A DNA stretch of 64,000 bases from positions 1 to 64,000 of the forward strand of contig NZ_SIRT01000018.1 of assembly GCF_004310325.1 (NCBI RefSeq). Direction: 5' to 3'. Each line of letters opens with the position of its first letter. Within the stretch, counting starts at the first letter, position 1. Both the position numbers and the translations under genes were made by a program. Origin of the DNA: Hyunsoonleella flava. Lineage in GTDB: Bacteria > Bacteroidota > Bacteroidia > Flavobacteriales > Flavobacteriaceae. The notes under the pieces are model-generated. The model was not told the DNA's origin. It saw only the letters and a program-made list of their open reading frames with translations, and did not search any database. Positions 32,529-58,634 of the stretch are shown here, piece by piece.

Positions 32529-34145
32529 ATGATGAACCATAATTCGTCCACACAGCAGATTTCATTAGAAGATTACGGTATTAAAAATGCGAAAATGCAT
32601 TACCAACTATCCCCTGAAGATTTACATCGCATAACTATTGAGAAAGGGCAAGGTGTTGAGACGTTCTCTGGGGCTTTAGCAGTAAATACTGGAGAATTTA
32701 CTGGCCGCTCTCCAAAAGATAGATTCATTGTAAAAGATACTATTACTGAGGACAAAATTTGGTGGGGTGACATAAATATACCTTTTGCACCTGAAGATTT
32801 TGATAAACTTTATGACAAAGTAGTGGCATACTTATCTGAAAAAGAAGTTTTTGTTAGGGATTGTTATGCCTGTGCCGATAAAAACTACAAAACAAATATT
32901 CGTGTAATTAACGAGTATCCTTGGAGTAATATGTTTGCTTACAACATGTTTTTAAGACCAACATTGGAGGAACTGGAAGGCTTTGAAGCAGAATGGACTG
33001 TTATAAACGCCCCTGGGTTTATGGCGAATCCTAAAGTTGACAAAACAAGACAACACAATTTTGCAATTTTAAATTTTACAAAAAAAATAGCTCTAGTCGG
33101 TGGTACTGGGTATACTGGTGAAATTAAAAAAGGTATTTTTTCTGCCTTGAATTTTATATTACCCGTTGAAAAAAACACTTTGCCTATGCATTGCAGTGCC
33201 AATGTAGGGAAAGAAGGTGATACTGCAATTTTCTTCGGGTTATCAGGTACTGGTAAAACAACACTTTCTACAGACCCTAATAGAAGTTTGATTGGTGATG
33301 ATGAACACGGATGGACAAACGAGAATTCTGTTTTTAATTTTGAAGGTGGTTGTTATGCAAAAGTGATAAGCCTATCCAAAGAGAAAGAGCAAGAAATTTA
33401 TGATGCTATAAAAAAAGGGGCTATTCTTGAAAATGTAATTTTGGATGATAACGGTGTTGTAGATTTTGATGATACTACAATAACACAAAACACTAGGGTA
33501 AGTTACCCAATTCATCATATTGAAAATATTATGGTGCCATCGGTAGGTGAGAATCCAAAAAACATATTCTTTTTAACGGCCGATGCTTTTGGGGTTATTC
33601 CACCAATTTCTAAATTAACACCAAGTCAGGCTGCATATCATTTTATATCGGGTTACACTGCAAAAGTAGCTGGTACCGAGGCTGGTGTTAAAGAGCCACA
33701 GCCCTCGTTTTCTGCATGTTTTGGTGCCCCGTTTATGCCACTGCATCCCGCGAAATACGCTGAAATGTTAAGCAAAAAAATGATTGAAGCTGGGGTAAAT
33801 GTTTGGTTGATAAACACTGGTTGGACTGGAGGTCCTTACGGTGTTGGTAAACGTATGGAATTAAAATACACGCGCGCTATGATTAATGCAGTGTTAAATG
33901 GAGATTTAGGCTTATATAACTACGATGATTATCACATTCACTCAGTATTTGGTGTGGCGCAACCAAGAACTTGTCCAGGTGTGCCAACAAGTGTATTAAG
34001 TCCTCGACAAACATGGAATGATGATAAAGCCTATTATACAATGGCATTTAAGTTAACTAATGCATTTAGAGAGAACTTTAAAAAGTTTGAGGCCCACTGT
34101 ACTGAAGAAATAAGACGTGGCGGCCCACAACGGTACGCCTTTTAA
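32529..34145 (+). CDS. pckA: Phosphoenolpyruvate carboxykinase (ATP)
   Basis: Converts oxaloacetate plus ATP to PEP plus CO2, the entry step of gluconeogenesis. The 538 residues match the ATP-type family. Diagnostic are TGRSPKDRF (58-66, oxaloacetate site), the PEPCK-specific HCSANVG (221-227), kinase-1a loop GLSGTGKT (237-244) and kinase-2 LIGDDEHGW. It is followed by a strong terminator. A second, unrelated-looking putative PEPCK of PPi type is encoded at 53840-57298. Confidence 0.98.
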   Translation: MMNHNSSTQQISLEDYGIKNAKMHYQLSPEDLHRITIEKGQGVETFSGALAVNTGEFTGRSPKDRFIVKDTITEDKIWWGDINIPFAPEDFDKLYDKVVAYLSEKEVFVRDCYACADKNYKTNIRVINEYPWSNMFAYNMFLRPTLEELEGFEAEWTVINAPGFMANPKVDKTRQHNFAILNFTKKIALVGGTGYTGEIKKGIFSALNFILPVEKNTLPMHCSANVGKEGDTAIFFGLSGTGKTTLSTDPNRSLIGDDEHGWTNENSVFNFEGGCYAKVISLSKEKEQEIYDAIKKGAILENVILDDNGVVDFDDTTITQNTRVSYPIHHIENIMVPSVGENPKNIFFLTADAFGVIPPISKLTPSQAAYHFISGYTAKVAGTEAGVKEPQPSFSACFGAPFMPLHPAKYAEMLSKKMIEAGVNVWLINTGWTGGPYGVGKRMELKYTRAMINAVLNGDLGLYNYDDYHIHSVFGVAQPRTCPGVPTSVLSPRQTWNDDKAYYTMAFKLTNAFRENFKKFEAHCTEEIRRGGPQRYAF

Positions 34146-50626: not shown

Positions 50627-51421
50627 CTACCACCAAACTAAAAATACTTTCTCAATGGTACCAGTATTGCGCTTCATCCAGCATAATGTGGAAAATTTTT
50701 GCTCAAAGTAATTTTTAGTTGTTTCTTTAAAAGTTTCAAAATTTAACCAATCAACGTTGCTGTAAGGTTCTATTAGCCAATCTTTTTTTGTAGGGATAAA
50801 AAATTTACAATCTTTAAAATTATTCAATTCATTCTTATTAACGTAAAATCCAGCTATACAATCGGTATTCAGGGTTTTGAGTTTCGTATTTTTATTGTTG
50901 TATGGTAAAAAAAGTTGTGCCTTAAAATAGACTTGCTGCGTCATGTCTTGTGCATCAAGATTAAATCTGTCCAAATACTTTTGGCAAGCATCAGAATAGA
51001 GCAAAGGTAGTTGCTTGTCCTTGAGTTTATTTAATTTTTCAATCAGGGAATCTTTCCTATTCGGACCAATAAAGTGTTCAATTTCCGAAGCGCCAATAGA
51101 AGTGTCATACAAATAGAATTTATAAATAATTTCTAAATGAATGGGCTTGTCGTCTTTTAAAAGCAAACAATCCAACTCACCCAGAGTGCCATTGTTTTTT
51201 TGAATTTGAATATTTTCGGCTACAACCTTAATGGCATCTTGTTGCCGTAATTCAAACGAAATTAAACGTTCTACATATTTTCCTAGACGTATGGTTTCAT
51301 CAATGGAAATATCAATTTTATGATGCAGGGAAGAGATTTCAAACTGCTTTAAACCGTGTACTGAATTATTATGCCAAAGGCAAGGTGTATTTAAAAAGCC
51401 TTTGTATCTTTTTTGAAGCAT
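50627..51421 (-). CDS. DUF1853 protein with nuclease-like motif
   Basis: The 264-residue protein carries the DUF1853 core: GTLGELDCLLL (79-88), PIHLEIIYKFYL (93-104) and FIGPNRKDSLIEKL. The Glu82-x-Asp84 ... Glu97-x3-Lys101 arrangement resembles a PD-(D/E)XK nuclease active site, but I cannot say it is functional. It starts directly at the stop of the metallophosphoesterase gene (no gap), so the two are translationally adjacent and co-transcribed. Confidence 0.78.
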   Translation of the reverse strand: MLQKRYKGFLNTPCLWHNNSVHGLKQFEISSLHHKIDISIDETIRLGKYVERLISFELRQQDAIKVVAENIQIQKNNGTLGELDCLLLKDDKPIHLEIIYKFYLYDTSIGASEIEHFIGPNRKDSLIEKLNKLKDKQLPLLYSDACQKYLDRFNLDAQDMTQQVYFKAQLFLPYNNKNTKLKTLNTDCIAGFYVNKNELNNFKDCKFFIPTKKDWLIEPYSNVDWLNFETFKETTKNYFEQKFSTLCWMKRNTGTIEKVFLVWW

Positions 51422-52321
51422 TTAATCGGTTTTGTAATCCTCCAATTTCCGTGGGCCTTCCAGCAACACTCTAACGATCTGCAAAGTACCATCGTCTTTG
51501 GTGGCAATCTGCCATTTAATCAAAGAGATTTCGCCATTTTCAATTTCCAGTCCTGTAATGCTTCTAGGGTGTACACAGCTTCCATCATTAAAAAATGCAA
51601 TGTCTCCAGGTTCTGGGAATCTTGGGCGATGTGTATGTCCAGCAATGGTTAAAAGGTTGCCGTTTTCAGCAATCCACTTTTTGGTTCTGCGCTCTACCTT
51701 AATAAGTTCTTTGTAGTTTTTCGCAGGACTAGTAGGGTCTGCAATTCCCATTACGTTTAAGGGTTTCCAAAGCACACGTACCATAAAACGACTCCATTTC
51801 CAAAATAGGTAATTCCACCAATCAGCTTGATGCCCATGTGTTAAAAATAATTCTTGTCCAGTAGAACAATGCTTTAAAACAATGCCTTCATGATAGGTGA
51901 TGTTTCCAAAAAGTTCAACATCTTCACCAACTTTTGGGTCAAAATACGTGGAAAGGTGCTTCTTTACATAATCAGGGTTTCGGTAGACCATATCATGATT
52001 GCCCCAAATCATGTGTAAACGATTATCCTTATGAAACAACTTCATTAACATGAATACATTTTTATGGGCATTTAAAATAGATTCAAACGATAGGTTTTCC
52101 CATAATTCGTCGCCATCGCCCAATTCGAAATACTGAAAACCTTCTGCATAATAATGCTTTAGTGCGTGAAAATAGATGTTGCGATTATTGGCAAAATCAT
52201 CAGCGAAACTATTGTCGCCACGGTGGCAATCACTAAACAAAATAAATTTACTCTCGTCATCAAAATCGACAACTTTAGCATTTTTGTATGCGTTATTTAA
52301 ACGTTTTTTAGAAGAAAACAT
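51422..52321 (-). CDS. Calcineurin-like metallophosphoesterase
   Basis: The 299-residue protein has the full set of metal motifs: Asp31-Cys-His33 (FSDCHRGD), GDGDELWEN (68-76), GNHD (107-110), THGHQADWW and GHTHRPRF. The family includes LpxH-like and nucleotide phosphodiesterases; the substrate is unknown. It is the middle gene of a GDSL-hydrolase / phosphoesterase / DUF1853 operon, 31 bp after the first gene. Confidence 0.88.
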   Translation of the reverse strand: MFSSKKRLNNAYKNAKVVDFDDESKFILFSDCHRGDNSFADDFANNRNIYFHALKHYYAEGFQYFELGDGDELWENLSFESILNAHKNVFMLMKLFHKDNRLHMIWGNHDMVYRNPDYVKKHLSTYFDPKVGEDVELFGNITYHEGIVLKHCSTGQELFLTHGHQADWWNYLFWKWSRFMVRVLWKPLNVMGIADPTSPAKNYKELIKVERRTKKWIAENGNLLTIAGHTHRPRFPEPGDIAFFNDGSCVHPRSITGLEIENGEISLIKWQIATKDDGTLQIVRVLLEGPRKLEDYKTD

Positions 52322-53165: not shown

Positions 53166-53770
53166 TTAATGCATGGCGTATTGCAACCCAAACATAAAGT
53201 TACAATTCTGTTTTAGCTGTATGCCGTTTAAGTCTTGATAAACGGGTGTGCTTATTTCCCTAGCAAATCTTAACCCTTTTAAATCACCATATTTGTTTAT
53301 ATAGTTTAATCCAAATCCAGAGTTTATAAAGGTTCCACCAGAGATTACAGTATCCGCAGTAGTTGCCATCATCGGGTTTAACAATGGGCTAGTGCCATCG
53401 ATCTCATCAAAAAGAGGTGCTTGCAATCTTATTAAAACACTTAAATTGTCTCCAGCTTTGGCAGCAATCCAGTTGTTAAAACTGTAGCGATTACCAAATT
53501 TATAGTCTTGGTCGTTATCTTTCAGGTTTATAAACCCCATTATCTGATGTCCTCAAGAAAATTTGTCGAATTGTCCTAAATAAGTCAATCCAAGTCTTGC
53601 ACCAAAAGATCCTGTGCCTATTTGCATAGGGTAAGGCAGTTGTACGGCATTACCAATAGGCGTTGGTAATAAGTTCTCTCAATACTTTCGGCAGGAATGT
53701 TCATGCCCAATTGCGTGTGTAATACTGTTCTGTTTTTATTAAATATACTTAGAACAATTGTTTGAGAAAA
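53166..53770 (-). pseudogene. Decayed outer-membrane transporter-like gene (5'-truncated, frameshift, stop)
   Basis: An intact ORF spans only 53166-53540 (124 codons), but homology-like sequence continues upstream. Reading on the minus strand, LPYPMQIGTGSFGARLGLTYLGQFDKFS runs (in two pieces) to an in-frame TGA at 53553-53555, where a Trp codon is expected, and then continues as GHQIMGFINLKDND. Further upstream KNRTVLHTQLGMNIPAESIE lies in another frame, so a frameshift falls near 53665-53690. No N-terminal half or signal peptide is found before the hairpin at 53773. It resembles the transporter/meta-pathway outer-membrane proteins. Sequencing errors could explain the two lesions, but not the missing 5' half. 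Confidence 0.68.
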
Positions 53771-53839: not shown

Positions 53840-56800
53840 CTAATTACTTTTTCTATACAGAGGGTCGGCTCCAATGGTACCTACTAAACTTTTTAGGTAG
53901 TCATCAGATTTCACTTCTGCATAAGATGCTTTTACAGATTTCAATTTGTCCTCAATTCGCATTTCAGAAACAAGGGTTTTATTGTCTTCATTAGCAATAA
54001 AATCCTCTAAATAACTTATTTGGGTGTCATAAAAACCAATATCTTTTTGCTGCTTCAATTTTAAACGTTCAGCATACCAATCACTCTTTACAACATAGTC
54101 TCTATCAAAGAATTTACGCAATTCTGGATCGCTAATATCTTTACCATCATATTCGCCATAAGCCATGATGTGCAATAAAATTTTCAGAGGAGGAATAGCA
54201 GCTTCAATACTACCATCAGCAAAATAGTTTAGTGCTACTTTTTGTTGTGCTTCGGTAATATTATTTATACCATCAACATAATCGTCCATACCTTGTAATT
54301 CTGGTTTCAGCATACGTTCACTAAATACCGCGGTAGGTTCATCAAAAATTCTATTTAAGCATAGTAAATTAAATTTCTCAGTAATTCTGTAACCTAATCT
54401 ACTAGCCAATACTTTTTGTCCGTCATACTCAAAATCCTCCAATTTTTCAAGAGCACCAACCTTAATTAGGTTAATAGGGTCTCTATCCTCAGGAGCCATT
54501 CTAGCCCATATTTCGGGTATCAATAAGCTTACGTCATGGTCTATCTTGTTTTCTGCACCAACATAACCTGCAGCGGTACTAAATCCGTTCGATTCTGTTA
54601 GGATGTGAGATAGTAAAGCATTATTTAAATCAGTTGTTGGTGTCAACATATTAAATGGAGCCTTTGTTAAAGCACCCTCGGATCCTGCACCTGTTGTTGA
54701 TGGTGATTTACCAGTTAAACTACAGATAAAATCCATAAATAATTCTGGAGTTTCTTGATAATGAATTGGGTTATAGACCGCTAAAGGTCTTATACCTGCT
54801 TTTTTATCTACAGGATTATTTCTTCTACCGGGTAACACTGCATTTACAGTATGGATGACTGGATCTTCTAATTTAATTTTTCGCTTTAAGCGCACACCCA
54901 TATCTGAGATGTAAGACGCCTCAGTTTCATTATAAAACTTGTTTGGCTCTAAATAACGTGGATTCTTAGTAGGTAAACCATCCTCAATAATTCTTGGGTG
55001 CGATGGTAATACAAACTGTATATCTTCATCATCGCTGTCAATAATTTCTTTTATGAAGTCTTGAACAGGTTGGGTGTATTTATCGTAATTGATAGTGTCT
55101 TCGTATATTTCAATAGCATCTTTTTTGGTTAACATTTCATAGTTAGTTAAAAATCTACCATCCGAAATAATATCTAATTCCGCACCTTTGTCATAACCAC
55201 GTACAATGGCTTCATCTGGTCTTTGAAATAAATGTGCTTCACAGTTTATAAGAACTTTTACACTTTTATTTGGATATTCGGGGTTTAAGTTTTTAAACTG
55301 ATTTCTTGGAAGCGTAATAGATGCTGAAATATCGTCTTCAGTTTGAATTTTTTCTGAAGCCGAAAAATCAGAGCGTAATTTATTTAACATCCAGTTGCCT
55401 TCTTGGTTAAAACCTATTCTTACATAACTTCCAACCACAGGGTTGTTATTATAAATTAAAGATGTGCCTTTTACACCGTTTATCGTTTCAACAGACATCA
55501 TGTCTTTCCAGTTTAGGTTAGCGCCATGGGCTTGTCTAAATAAACGTTTAACAAACAATATTAAAGAGCGCACATGTACTGGGATATTTTCTAACCATTC
55601 GTTAAATTCATCCGAGTTTTCTTCAGATGGTGTTAACAATTTTACGACAGAACCTAAGGTTCGTTTTTCACTTAATAATGATCTGGATTTTGGTCTTTTA
55701 ATAGTTTTATCTTTCCAGCGAGTTGAATAATTAAATTCTATAATTTCATCAGCCTTTTTAAAGTCTTCTTCTATATTGTGAATATTGAAGTTGCTATATG
55801 TAATGGCATTTTGCATGGATTTTGAAATCTCAGATTTACCACCACCAGAAACCGTACAAGGTTTATGACAAAACACACCTTCTGGGTAAGTCTCAATCAT
55901 ACGCCATAAATCGATGGATTTATGTTTTTCTAACCGAAGTTTATTGCCTGATGGATGTATATAAGTTTTAAAAGGCGATAGCTTTAATCGTTGTTCTTCT
56001 CCCTTGTAATTCCAGGAAATACTATTGGTGTTAGTATCAAAATAAGATGACTCAGGAATATAAATGATATTTGGGTAGGTTTTATCTATAGCATAGTTTT
56101 CTGGTTGTACCTCAATACGATCTCCTAATAAAGTTTTAACATCTTCAATGGTATGATCTAATCCGTAATACACTTTGTAATCTTCGCAATTAACGGTATC
56201 CCCCATCACACGTCTTGCGTAAGCTATGGCGCCACCAGCGTGTTCTTCTTCTAAAACACCATATAAGTTAGCGGAGTAGCTAATTTGTGTTTTAATCTCT
56301 TTTTTAGAATACCCGTAGTAGTTATCGGCAATCAAAGTAACTACGACTCCGCTGTCATCTCTACACGTAATTTTAAATGCACCGCCGTCATTATACAACT
56401 CATTTTCATCTTTCCAGCACATGCCATCCTTTTTTTGACGATCTGTAGCGTCATCAAAATGAGGTAATCCCACCTCTTTCTTTTTCAGCTTTAAAAGTTG
56501 AGGCGCTAAAATAATGCATCCTGTATGTCCTGTCCAGTGTTCTGGATCTAAAGCAGCATCATTATGTGCTAAATTTGGGTTGCCAGCATTACCAAATATA
56601 TTCTCAACGAAGTCTAAATTACTAGCTAAGTTTCCTGGTGTAAAAAAGCGCACCTCTAAAGATTTTTTGGTAACTACACCTTTTACTTCTGGGCAAACTG
56701 TTGGTCTTAAAAGCATAGACACCATGGTTTTTGCTTTTTCTTCCTGGTTTGATGTAAATGGTAACGTATTTAAATCATCCGAGGGTTTGAACGCTTCATT

Positions 56801-57298
56801 TATAAAATGTGCTAAAACTACTCGAGGCACTTCTTTTTTGTCCAATGGTACAGGCAATGGACCTTCAACAATATGAAACGTTCCTTTAGTAGTACGTTTA
56901 TCATGTAATGGGTTGTTCAAGATACCTTGTTTTAAGCGTTTAGAGTTGACTAAATCACTTTCAAATGAATTGCCATCAGGTGGTAGACTAACCTCTCTTG
57001 CTTGTCCTTTTTTAGAAAGTATTAGTGTGTTATTAGGTAATTTATAGGGTTTGTCAATAGATACATCTTTTAGATAACGGTCAATAAAGTTTTGAATCCT
57101 CGTATCAGCTGGTGATAAATGATCGGCTAACAGTCTTGACTTTTCCCGCAAGCTCATGATTAATGGCTTGGTAGTTTTTTCAAATTCTGGGTCACAGAAT
57201 TTAATCGCGCTATCATCTTTATCTTTGAAAGTAGGTTGCCCTAATGCGGCTAATTGTAGGTTGGTAAACTGGATAATGTCTTTTCTTGAATCTTTCAT
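53840..57298 (-). CDS. Giant (1152 aa) protein, putative PPi-type phosphoenolpyruvate carboxykinase
   Basis: The 1152-residue soluble protein has no signal peptide. I recognise it as probably the ~130 kDa pyrophosphate-dependent PEP carboxykinase family described in Entamoeba and some bacteria, which interconverts oxaloacetate plus PPi with PEP, phosphate and CO2. Supporting features are the length, the glycine-rich SGGGKSEISKS (484-494), and the TGKSPSTTGAGSEGALTK block (862-879). It shares no obvious alignment with the ATP-PEPCK at 32529. A TAnnTTTG box lies 48 bp upstream and a strong terminator follows. The gene upstream is glutaryl-CoA dehydrogenase. If the family call is wrong it remains a giant uncharacterised enzyme. 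Confidence 0.6.
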   Translation of the reverse strand: MKDSRKDIIQFTNLQLAALGQPTFKDKDDSAIKFCDPEFEKTTKPLIMSLREKSRLLADHLSPADTRIQNFIDRYLKDVSIDKPYKLPNNTLILSKKGQAREVSLPPDGNSFESDLVNSKRLKQGILNNPLHDKRTTKGTFHIVEGPLPVPLDKKEVPRVVLAHFINEAFKPSDDLNTLPFTSNQEEKAKTMVSMLLRPTVCPEVKGVVTKKSLEVRFFTPGNLASNLDFVENIFGNAGNPNLAHNDAALDPEHWTGHTGCIILAPQLLKLKKKEVGLPHFDDATDRQKKDGMCWKDENELYNDGGAFKITCRDDSGVVVTLIADNYYGYSKKEIKTQISYSANLYGVLEEEHAGGAIAYARRVMGDTVNCEDYKVYYGLDHTIEDVKTLLGDRIEVQPENYAIDKTYPNIIYIPESSYFDTNTNSISWNYKGEEQRLKLSPFKTYIHPSGNKLRLEKHKSIDLWRMIETYPEGVFCHKPCTVSGGGKSEISKSMQNAITYSNFNIHNIEEDFKKADEIIEFNYSTRWKDKTIKRPKSRSLLSEKRTLGSVVKLLTPSEENSDEFNEWLENIPVHVRSLILFVKRLFRQAHGANLNWKDMMSVETINGVKGTSLIYNNNPVVGSYVRIGFNQEGNWMLNKLRSDFSASEKIQTEDDISASITLPRNQFKNLNPEYPNKSVKVLINCEAHLFQRPDEAIVRGYDKGAELDIISDGRFLTNYEMLTKKDAIEIYEDTINYDKYTQPVQDFIKEIIDSDDEDIQFVLPSHPRIIEDGLPTKNPRYLEPNKFYNETEASYISDMGVRLKRKIKLEDPVIHTVNAVLPGRRNNPVDKKAGIRPLAVYNPIHYQETPELFMDFICSLTGKSPSTTGAGSEGALTKAPFNMLTPTTDLNNALLSHILTESNGFSTAAGYVGAENKIDHDVSLLIPEIWARMAPEDRDPINLIKVGALEKLEDFEYDGQKVLASRLGYRITEKFNLLCLNRIFDEPTAVFSERMLKPELQGMDDYVDGINNITEAQQKVALNYFADGSIEAAIPPLKILLHIMAYGEYDGKDISDPELRKFFDRDYVVKSDWYAERLKLKQQKDIGFYDTQISYLEDFIANEDNKTLVSEMRIEDKLKSVKASYAEVKSDDYLKSLVGTIGADPLYRKSN

Positions 57299-57346: not shown

Positions 57347-57354
57347 CAAAAGTA
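57347..57354 (-). promoter_or_regulatory. Putative -7 box for the giant putative PEPCK gene
   Basis: Minus-strand TACTTTTG matches TAnnTTTG, 48 bp before the ATG. Just upstream an inverted pair TTGACAT / ATGTCAA (about 57356-57382) could bind a regulator. Confidence 0.4.
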
Positions 57355-57455
57355 AATTGACATTCCTTTAAAAAACATGTCAAAAGTCATGTTATAGCTA
57401 GAAAATATACTAAAACGATGTAGTGAAATTGATACTTCAAGAAGTAAAAAGAAGC

Positions 57456-58634
57456 TTATTTAAAAGCATTCAGTCCAGTAATATCCAATCCTGTAATTAA
57501 TAAATGAATATCATGTGTGCCTTCATAAGTAATGACACTTTCTAAATTCATGGAATGGCGCATAACGGAGTATTCTCCAGTAATTCCCATGCCACCAAGC
57601 ATTTGTCTGGCTTCTCGTGCGATATTAATTGCCATTTCAACATTATTGCGTTTTGCCATGGATATTTGTGCGGAAGTAGCTGTACCATTTTCACGCATTA
57701 CGCCCAATCTCCATGCTAGAAGTTGTGCCTTGGTAATTTCGGTAATCATCTCTGCAAGCTTCTTTTGTTGTAGTTGAAATTGGCCAATAGGTTTACCAAA
57801 TTGGATGCGTTCTTTACTGTAGCGCAAAGCAGTATCATAACAATCCATAGCAGCACCAATAGCACCCCAAGCAATACCATATCTTGCAGAGTCTAAACAT
57901 CCTAGAGGCGCGCCTAATCCAGATTTGTTGGGTAGTAAATTTTCTTTGGGCACTTTTACATTATCAAAAATAAGTTCTCCAGTTGCCGATGCACGAAGCG
58001 ACCATTTGTTGTGGGTTTCTGGCGTAGTAAACCCATCCATACCACGTTCTACAATTAGTCCATGTATTCTGCCCTCTTCATTTTTTGCCCAAACCACGGC
58101 AACCTGCGCAAAAGGCGCGTTACTAATCCAAAGTTTGGCTCCATTTAAAAGATAATGGTCTCCCATATCCTTAAAATTTGTTGTCATACCTCCCGGGTTA
58201 CTGCCATGGTCTGGTTCGGTTAATCCGAAGCACCCCATCCATTCGCCACTGGCTAGTTTTGGTAAATATTTTTGGCGTTGTTCTTCATTGCCATATTTCC
58301 AAATAGGATACATCACCAAGGATGATTGTACTGAGGCTGTGGAACGTACGCCAGAATCACCACGCTCTATTTCCTGCATGATTAAACCATAACTAATTTG
58401 GTCTAACCCTGCACCACCATACTCCATGGGGATATAGGGGCCGAAAGCACCAATTTCAGCTAAACCTCCAATAATCTGTTTTGGGAATTCTGCCTTTTGC
58501 GCATATTCTTCTATGATAGGAGAAACATCACGTTTTACCCAATCACGGGCAGCGTTTCTAACTAATTTATGCTCATCAGTGAGTAATTCATCTAAATTGT
58601 AGTAATCAGGGGCTTCGAATAAATCTGGCTTCAT
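57456..58634 (-). CDS. gcdH: Acyl-CoA dehydrogenase, glutaryl-CoA dehydrogenase type
   Basis: The 392-residue flavoprotein converts glutaryl-CoA to crotonyl-CoA in lysine/tryptophan degradation. The segment GDSGVRSTASVQSSLVMYPI with Arg97 and FGLTEPDHGSNPGGM match glutaryl-CoA dehydrogenases rather than ordinary acyl-CoA dehydrogenases, and the catalytic base is Glu371 in TYEGTHDIH. FAD-binding motifs WISNAPFA and RYGIAWG are present. It has its own -7 box and lies upstream of the giant putative PEPCK on the same strand. Confidence 0.9.
   Translation of the reverse strand: MKPDLFEAPDYYNLDELLTDEHKLVRNAARDWVKRDVSPIIEEYAQKAEFPKQIIGGLAEIGAFGPYIPMEYGGAGLDQISYGLIMQEIERGDSGVRSTASVQSSLVMYPIWKYGNEEQRQKYLPKLASGEWMGCFGLTEPDHGSNPGGMTTNFKDMGDHYLLNGAKLWISNAPFAQVAVVWAKNEEGRIHGLIVERGMDGFTTPETHNKWSLRASATGELIFDNVKVPKENLLPNKSGLGAPLGCLDSARYGIAWGAIGAAMDCYDTALRYSKERIQFGKPIGQFQLQQKKLAEMITEITKAQLLAWRLGVMRENGTATSAQISMAKRNNVEMAINIAREARQMLGGMGITGEYSVMRHSMNLESVITYEGTHDIHLLITGLDITGLNAFK

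Follow-up and report, generated by a model that had tools for sequence, protein, structure and literature searches.

A pyrophosphate-type phosphoenolpyruvate carboxykinase gene of Hyunsoonleella flava and a putative promoter element shared with pyruvate formate-lyase genes of Flavobacteriaceae

A 64,000 bp stretch of the Hyunsoonleella flava genome (accession: NZ_SIRT01000018.1, positions 1 to 64,000; hereafter the window) was found to contain an open reading frame (ORF) of 1152 amino acids at 53840–57298, on the minus strand, with its start codon at 57298 and reading down to 53840. A preliminary description of this DNA, which gave no strand for the ORF, had assigned its product to the pyrophosphate (PPi)-dependent phosphoenolpyruvate (PEP) carboxykinases (PPi-PEPCK; EC 4.1.1.38) on the basis of its length and two motifs. 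Both motifs were present at the residues claimed: SGGGKSEISKS, which is P-loop-like, at residues 484–494 and TGKSPSTTGAGSEGALTK at residues 862–879. A phmmer search of the PDB up to E 10 returned five chains, of which the only two PPi-PEPCKs were matched end to end. These were 8e1u, the Propionibacterium freudenreichii enzyme (PEP carboxytransphosphorylase, EC 4.1.1.38), with 1050.6 bits over residues 7–1147 of the window protein and about 44% identity, and 6k31 (AiPEPCK in the PDB table), which we take to be the Actinomyces israelii enzyme, with 1032.9 bits over residues 14–1146 and about 43% identity. A profile of 28 sequences lifted these scores to 1319.5 bits and 1318 bits respectively. 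The remaining three chains of the phmmer search (short matches, E 0.67–0.89) and two hemagglutinin chains in the profile search (E 0.04–0.06) were taken as chance. SGGGKSEISKS was invariant in 28/28 aligned sequences and the second segment varied at residue 873 alone; in the alignments both segments were identical in 8e1u and 6k31.

The AlphaFold2 model of the window protein was of medium quality (mean pLDDT 69.3, pTM 0.69) and both motif segments fell in parts with pLDDT <50. Foldseek with this model placed 8e1u (E 5.5e-92, TM 0.84) and 6k31 (E 2.9e-89) at ranks 1–10, with TM scores by query length of 0.82–0.85 over about 1150 columns. ATP-dependent PEP carboxykinases (ATP-PEPCK, PF01293) came next, far behind, the best being 1os1 (E 3e-3), with the P-loop SGGGKSEIS aligned to SGTGKTTLS. 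They are distant structural kin, whereas the window protein is twice as long and has no sequence-family match: no Pfam or NCBIfam model matched it at E 0.01, PF01293 and TIGR00224 included. This fits the earlier remark that such proteins are normally annotated as hypothetical. A sequence-profile link between the two PEPCK types was rejected, as 14 columns aligned at 2% probability. Membership of the PPi-PEPCK family is settled by sequence and fold; of the two results that the preliminary description had named as refuting it, no similarity to characterised members or a model without the PEPCK fold, neither was obtained. Identity of about 44% to two solved members predicts that the protein catalyses PEP + CO2 + Pi <=> oxaloacetate + PPi; both of these enzymes come from a different phylum. 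The family itself is known, if rarely annotated, and the window protein is a further member, its closest named relatives being those of Hyunsoonleella pacifica (92% identity) and H. ulvae (91%).

The window also encodes a classical ATP-PEPCK (pckA, 538 amino acids, 32529–34145, plus strand; PF01293 721.2 bits, TIGR00224 697 bits, cut-off 590), as previously described. The earlier account of both PEPCK types together was an understatement, as genome searches revealed one PPi-PEPCK, two ATP-PEPCKs (one in the window and one on contig C1), a PEP carboxylase, a pyruvate phosphate dikinase (PPDK), an H+-pumping pyrophosphatase (H+-PPase) and a soluble pyrophosphatase. The second ATP-PEPCK (L119:9766–11379) is 66% identical to the window copy and adjoins a citrate-transporter-type gene (PF03600). 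The PPDK gene neighbours an MFS gene, a PflA-like radical-SAM gene and pflB, which encodes pyruvate formate-lyase (PFL). The presence of both PEPCK types is not new because it is usual for carriers: according to the sections of PMC8100219 available to us, which cite Chiba et al. 2015, PPi-PEPCK occurs together with ATP- or GTP-PEPCK in most of them. In the same sections Entamoeba is said to have PPi-PEPCK as its sole PEPCK type, in three copies, unlike the one copy and two ATP-PEPCKs found here; it is this literature that places the Entamoeba histolytica enzymes in the same family. Methylotuvimicrobium alcaliphilum, a methanotroph in which PEP formation was inferred, is a bacterial carrier that also has PPDK and a PPi-dependent phosphofructokinase, and is likened to H. 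flava by description only (PMC6860931, in part). The family is reported to be homodimeric in the accessible text of PMC10441589. Full-text literature searches, judged by titles and the starts of abstracts and with most subscription papers outside them, returned no paper on PPi-PEPCK in Flavobacteriaceae or on a link to PFL. What is new here is evidence on the role of the enzyme, namely its promoter and its co-occurrence with PFL.

A composite element (57347–57389) was found upstream of the PPi-PEPCK gene. It consists of a TGAC-N4-GACA dyad (57378–57389, minus strand), which is a putative Crp/Fnr-type operator, and, 23 nt downstream of it, TACTTTTG (57347–57354, minus strand), which is a putative −7 box of the Bacteroidota type. 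The dyad was first noticed upstream of PPi-PEPCK, pflB and PPDK of the window genome, and the element recurs upstream of orthologues of the PPi-PEPCK gene. The composite was defined as TGAY-N4-GWCA, 23 nt, TAnnTTTG, with spacers of 21–25 nt allowed in counts. In the window this site is exact and is the sole match with up to 1 mismatch (0.14 expected; 10/100 shuffles had at least one). The dyad taken alone was not enriched there (14 matches with up to 1 mismatch expected, 7 seen), so that any weight rests with the composite. The best site upstream of the window ATP-PEPCK has 4 mismatches.

In Flavobacteriales the composite was exact in 39/49 PPi-PEPCK upstream regions and present with ≤1 mismatch in 42/49, all with a spacer of 23 nt; since the dyad was recognised in these very sequences, they do not test it independently. 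Upstream of PFL it was exact in 26/43 and present with ≤1 mismatch in 31/43, 30 of them with spacer 23. Leaving out the window genome makes this an independent test, in which 25/42 were exact and 30/42 had ≤1 mismatch. Fewer exact sites preceded PPDK (1/7 exact, 4/7 with ≤1 mismatch) and none of the 11 ATP-PEPCK upstream regions of the window's genus carried the composite. Shuffled upstream regions gave no exact composite and 0.1–1% with ≤1 mismatch, and none of the first-order Markov copies had an exact one, while 6/1470 and 3/1290 had one with ≤1 mismatch. The information content per column is partly circular, since sites were picked by pattern, and it is the counts and the constancy of the spacer that carry the argument. 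The comparison of PPi-PEPCK and PFL promoters was confined to Bacteroidota.

The dyad resembles TGA-N6-TCA, the sequence generally read by Crp-like factors, although at PPi-PEPCK its second half is often GACA, not GTCA. Its centre lies 29 nt upstream of the box, which follows the Bacteroidota −7 consensus TAnnTTTG; class II Crp/Fnr-type sites have a dyad centred near −41.5. The arrangement is compatible with a class II Crp/Fnr-type site. PFL works only without oxygen, so that an anaerobic activator would be the simplest regulator. The canonical FNR box TTGA-N6-TCAA was tried and rejected, with 0/80 upstream regions exact and 20/80 at 1 mismatch, where shuffles gave 15%, a slight excess at most. 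A gene for a cyclic-nucleotide-binding domain protein (PF00027, from one scanned copy), a possible Crp/Fnr regulator, was seen at L032:9605–10177, with similar genes in 8 other loci. It occurred in 9/92 of the neighbourhoods compared (genome G164 counted twice), directly downstream of PPi-PEPCK in 7, and is not general.

PPi-PEPCK was carried by 12/60 relatives, the window genome included, and ATP-PEPCK was present in 12/12 of these. In a sample of 395 genomes of the phylum, 12 rows were returned, of which the two weakest (short, E about 1e-3) were taken as chance, leaving 10 carriers; ATP-PEPCK was found in 8/9 of the other carriers in this sample and G441 has none. The statement that the family is known from a few bacteria was too narrow, as in one scan a relative was encoded by 117 of 119 stretches found by pattern matching, though no more than 10 of the 395 sampled genomes of the phylum are carriers.

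Since PPDK adjoins pflB and a PflA-like gene in the window genome, PFL was scored in the 60 genomes, as TIGR01255 above its cut-off. It was present in 13/60, namely 11/12 PPi-PEPCK carriers and 2/48 non-carriers (Fisher p 2.6e-9, uncorrected for kinship). Within the window's genus, PPi-PEPCK and PFL occur together in 8 genomes and are both absent from 4 (G010, one of the 4, is 87% complete). A second set of carriers had PFL in 39/50, made up of 30/39 Flavobacteriales and 9/11 others. This set was drawn from 80 loci, the best of the 119 stretches; of the 30 omitted, 9 belonged to the same genus or to genomes counted before, and 21 were others, mostly metagenome-assembled genomes (MAGs) or further Marinilabiliales. 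Co-occurrence with PPDK was unsupported once kinship was kept in view (0.6 the same way and 0.2 opposite, of 4 independent pairs).

If PPi-PEPCK, PFL and perhaps PPDK belong to one regulon, this speaks for a fermentative role in which PEP is carboxylated and PPi is conserved. Our reading, to which we give a probability of about 0.6, is that the PPi-PEPCK gene of one large Flavobacteriaceae group has a promoter built like that of pflB and, less exactly, that of PPDK, and that it serves fermentative carboxylation, the direction and the coupling being inferred. A dimeric Crp/Fnr-type activator, probably anaerobic, would bind the dyad in the class II position, and PPi-PEPCK, pflB and PPDK would be switched on together as oxygen runs out. 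Under fermentation PPi-PEPCK would then carboxylate PEP to oxaloacetate, keeping the phosphoanhydride as PPi, and the malate, fumarate and succinate made from oxaloacetate would serve as electron sinks. The PPi could be spent by PPDK (PEP + AMP + PPi -> pyruvate + ATP) or by the H+-PPase, both encoded by the genome, while the ATP-PEPCK, free of the element in the window's genus, would keep its gluconeogenic job. As far as the available text of PMC7650540 shows, the Propionibacterium PEP carboxytransphosphorylase is pyrophosphate-generating and is linked to an H+-pumping pyrophosphatase; P. freudenreichii itself has no such pyrophosphatase. Flavobacteriaceae of sandy sediments, Lutibacter isolates included, are reported to ferment facultatively (PMC10939381 and PMC8443593, in part), and Lutibacter is among the PPi-PEPCK carriers (L040, L043 and L049), with PFL in 2/3.

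Several results weigh against this reading. Carriers G014 and G164 have no PFL above the cut-off, nor do 8 phylum-sample carriers of other families; glycyl-radical relatives below the cut-off were found in G014 and in four of those eight. In the second set PFL was absent from 6/7 Winogradskyella, 3 other Flavobacteriales and 2 Mariniphaga. A single-gene tree covering 38/60 genomes gave 4 independent pairs on well-supported branches (6 on all branches), in which PFL followed PPi-PEPCK in 2.8 of 4 on average and opposed it in none, which is not significant. The composite was present in 0/8 PFL upstream regions of Marinilabiliales and kin (a ninth, at a contig end, was left out) and in 0/3 PPi-PEPCK upstream regions of G014, G025 and G164, and no exact composite was found at 32 non-flavobacterial PPi-PEPCK loci. 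At PPDK, 5/6 sites end in TTTA instead of TTTG. Among relatives, ATP-PEPCK upstream regions held the composite exactly in 1/41 and with ≤1 mismatch in 7/41 (0/23 and 4/23 in a first group, 1 and 3 in 18 more), so the element is not specific to the PPi enzyme. Finally, the soluble pyrophosphatase of the genome would hydrolyse PPi, and the direction of the PPi-PEPCK reaction cannot be read from sequence.

The small number of independent pairs, and the retention of PPi-PEPCK without PFL in most Winogradskyella searched, would be expected if co-occurrence with PFL were mere shared ancestry and the element a general promoter of many Flavobacteriaceae genes. We consider this very unlikely, given that genes other than PPi-PEPCK and pflB hold 2/43 of the exact matches (spacer 22–24) in 1.545 Mb of scanned DNA, although this DNA had been selected for its PPi-PEPCK loci and does not represent a complete genome. 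Of the rest, 40 are upstream of PPi-PEPCK, one genome being counted twice (L020, L112), and 1 is upstream of pflB. Moreover, apart from a T-rich run after the dyad, PPi-PEPCK and PFL differ in their 23-nt spacers. One exact composite in another setting (L114:4035–4076, in G003; spacer 22) lies 28 nt upstream of a 378-aa gene that by eye is Mrp/ApbC-type ATPase-like.

The element at some ATP-PEPCK genes, and its exact retention at PPi-PEPCK in 5/6 PFL-free Winogradskyella, would favour another possibility, in which PPi-PEPCK works reversibly at this node, without a set direction, and buffers PEP, oxaloacetate and PPi in oxic–anoxic shifts, its promoter responding to low energy charge and not to anoxia itself. 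That Crp-like factors in general read such dyads agrees with this, whereas the pairing with PFL in the window's genus points to anaerobic use, and we judge a directionless enzyme improbable as the whole account; it is compatible with fermentative carboxylation and does not exclude it. The composite with ≤1 mismatch was seen at ATP-PEPCK in five genomes without PPi-PEPCK, at L231 (G013), L230 (G012), L235 (G029), L248 (G026) and L251 (G036), in which ATP-PEPCK may take the same role. The carriers G164 (L233) and G014 (L253) also have it at ATP-PEPCK.

The preliminary description had proposed that PPi from biosynthesis allows the two PEPCK types to run in opposite directions. In this account biosynthetic PPi drives oxaloacetate to PEP, for gluconeogenesis, with ATP-PEPCK running the opposite way or as a backup. 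The reaction is reversible, and M. alcaliphilum extracts make PEP from malate, which the available part of PMC6860931 credits to malate dehydrogenase and PPi-PEPCK; this counts both for that account and against fermentative carboxylation. Moreover, three genomes of the window's genus (G004, G006 and G011) are without both PEPCK types, as if one purpose were served by both there. G011 is collinear with the window over about 30 kb around the two sites, as is G006 apart from some inserted genes, and the two PEPCK genes are missing at separate sites about 20 kb apart. The promoter element, in contrast, is common to PPi-PEPCK and PFL and not to the ATP-PEPCKs of the genus, the presence of PPi-PEPCK follows PFL, and the soluble pyrophosphatase and H+-PPase would compete for biosynthetic PPi. 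A gluconeogenic, PPi-driven role is unlikely in our view: the shared element hints at a regulon under a Crp/Fnr-type and perhaps anaerobic factor, with PEP being carboxylated, and promoter and co-occurrence point to fermentation, without proof.

At the empty sites of G006 and G011, tblastn found no remnant of either PEPCK gene. Both genomes have a closed PPi-PEPCK site; that of ATP-PEPCK is closed in G011 only, other ORFs occupying it in G006. Neither genome has the lipase and outer-membrane-type genes that lie next to PPi-PEPCK. The region is more rearranged in G004. An H+-PPase tree (single gene, 38 of 60 genomes, with deep paralogues and 9 open forks) placed G006 and G011 as sisters and G004 elsewhere. 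None of the three genomes had a match to PPDK, and they are perhaps dedicated sugar users which, if PEP synthase is also absent, would form no PEP from C4 acids. G010 has kept ATP-PEPCK and is without PPi-PEPCK; this absence is no assembly gap because the region lies on one contig.

In a protein tree (FastTree, 92 rows, midpoint root) the large Flavobacteriaceae group adjoins Marinilabiliaceae and Prolixibacteraceae sequences. A separate group, with 52–57% identity to the window protein, holds L012 (G014), Balneicella, a Brocadiia MAG and genomes of f31 and f60. As G014 belongs to the window's family, two PPi-PEPCK lineages within one family would suggest horizontal transfer; this copy may be a binning error, since the assembly is 80% complete and the gene lies on a 7.7-kb contig.

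The neighbours of PPi-PEPCK point to a shared locus and no pathway. The commonest across the 92 loci were acyl-CoA dehydrogenase, TrmN-like, RimM-like and metallophosphoesterase genes, and no PEP- or PPi-linked partner gene stood out by eye. The acyl-CoA dehydrogenase gene (57456–58634, minus strand; Pfam), the conserved upstream neighbour that marks this locus, is present in 40/92 loci and lies 1–2 genes upstream of PPi-PEPCK in 38. The metallophosphoesterase gene (51422–52321, minus strand; Pfam and locus comparison) borders the empty PPi-PEPCK site of G006 and G011 on its other side. A DUF1853 protein (PF08907) is encoded at 50627–51421, a neighbour kept in 18/92 loci. Just downstream of PPi-PEPCK, 53166–53762 (minus strand) holds the remains of a 345–347 aa outer-membrane-type gene, with N-terminal matches missing and the rest in two reading frames; PF13557 was found in a longer relative.

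It is possible, and we put it forward tentatively, that the PEP node of many Flavobacteriaceae is PPi-based and induced under anaerobic conditions: one Crp/Fnr-type regulator would govern PPi-PEPCK, PFL and PPDK, and PPi would be turned into ATP by PPDK or into proton motive force by the H+-pyrophosphatase. The element common to PPi-PEPCK and PFL offers a direct and cheap way to test the purpose of PPi-PEPCK beside ATP-PEPCK in cultured marine bacteria. The window protein has no match among the models of the Pfam and NCBIfam releases searched, so that enzymes of this kind are easily missed in annotation and in flux models. If the proposal is true, fermentation in this family would include an inherent energy-saving branch. 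As facultatively fermenting Flavobacteriaceae are reported, in the accessible parts of PMC10939381 and PMC8443593, to be dominant in permeable coastal sediments, an overlooked PPi-conserving carboxylation could matter for the energy yield and the products of the Flavobacteriaceae that live there.

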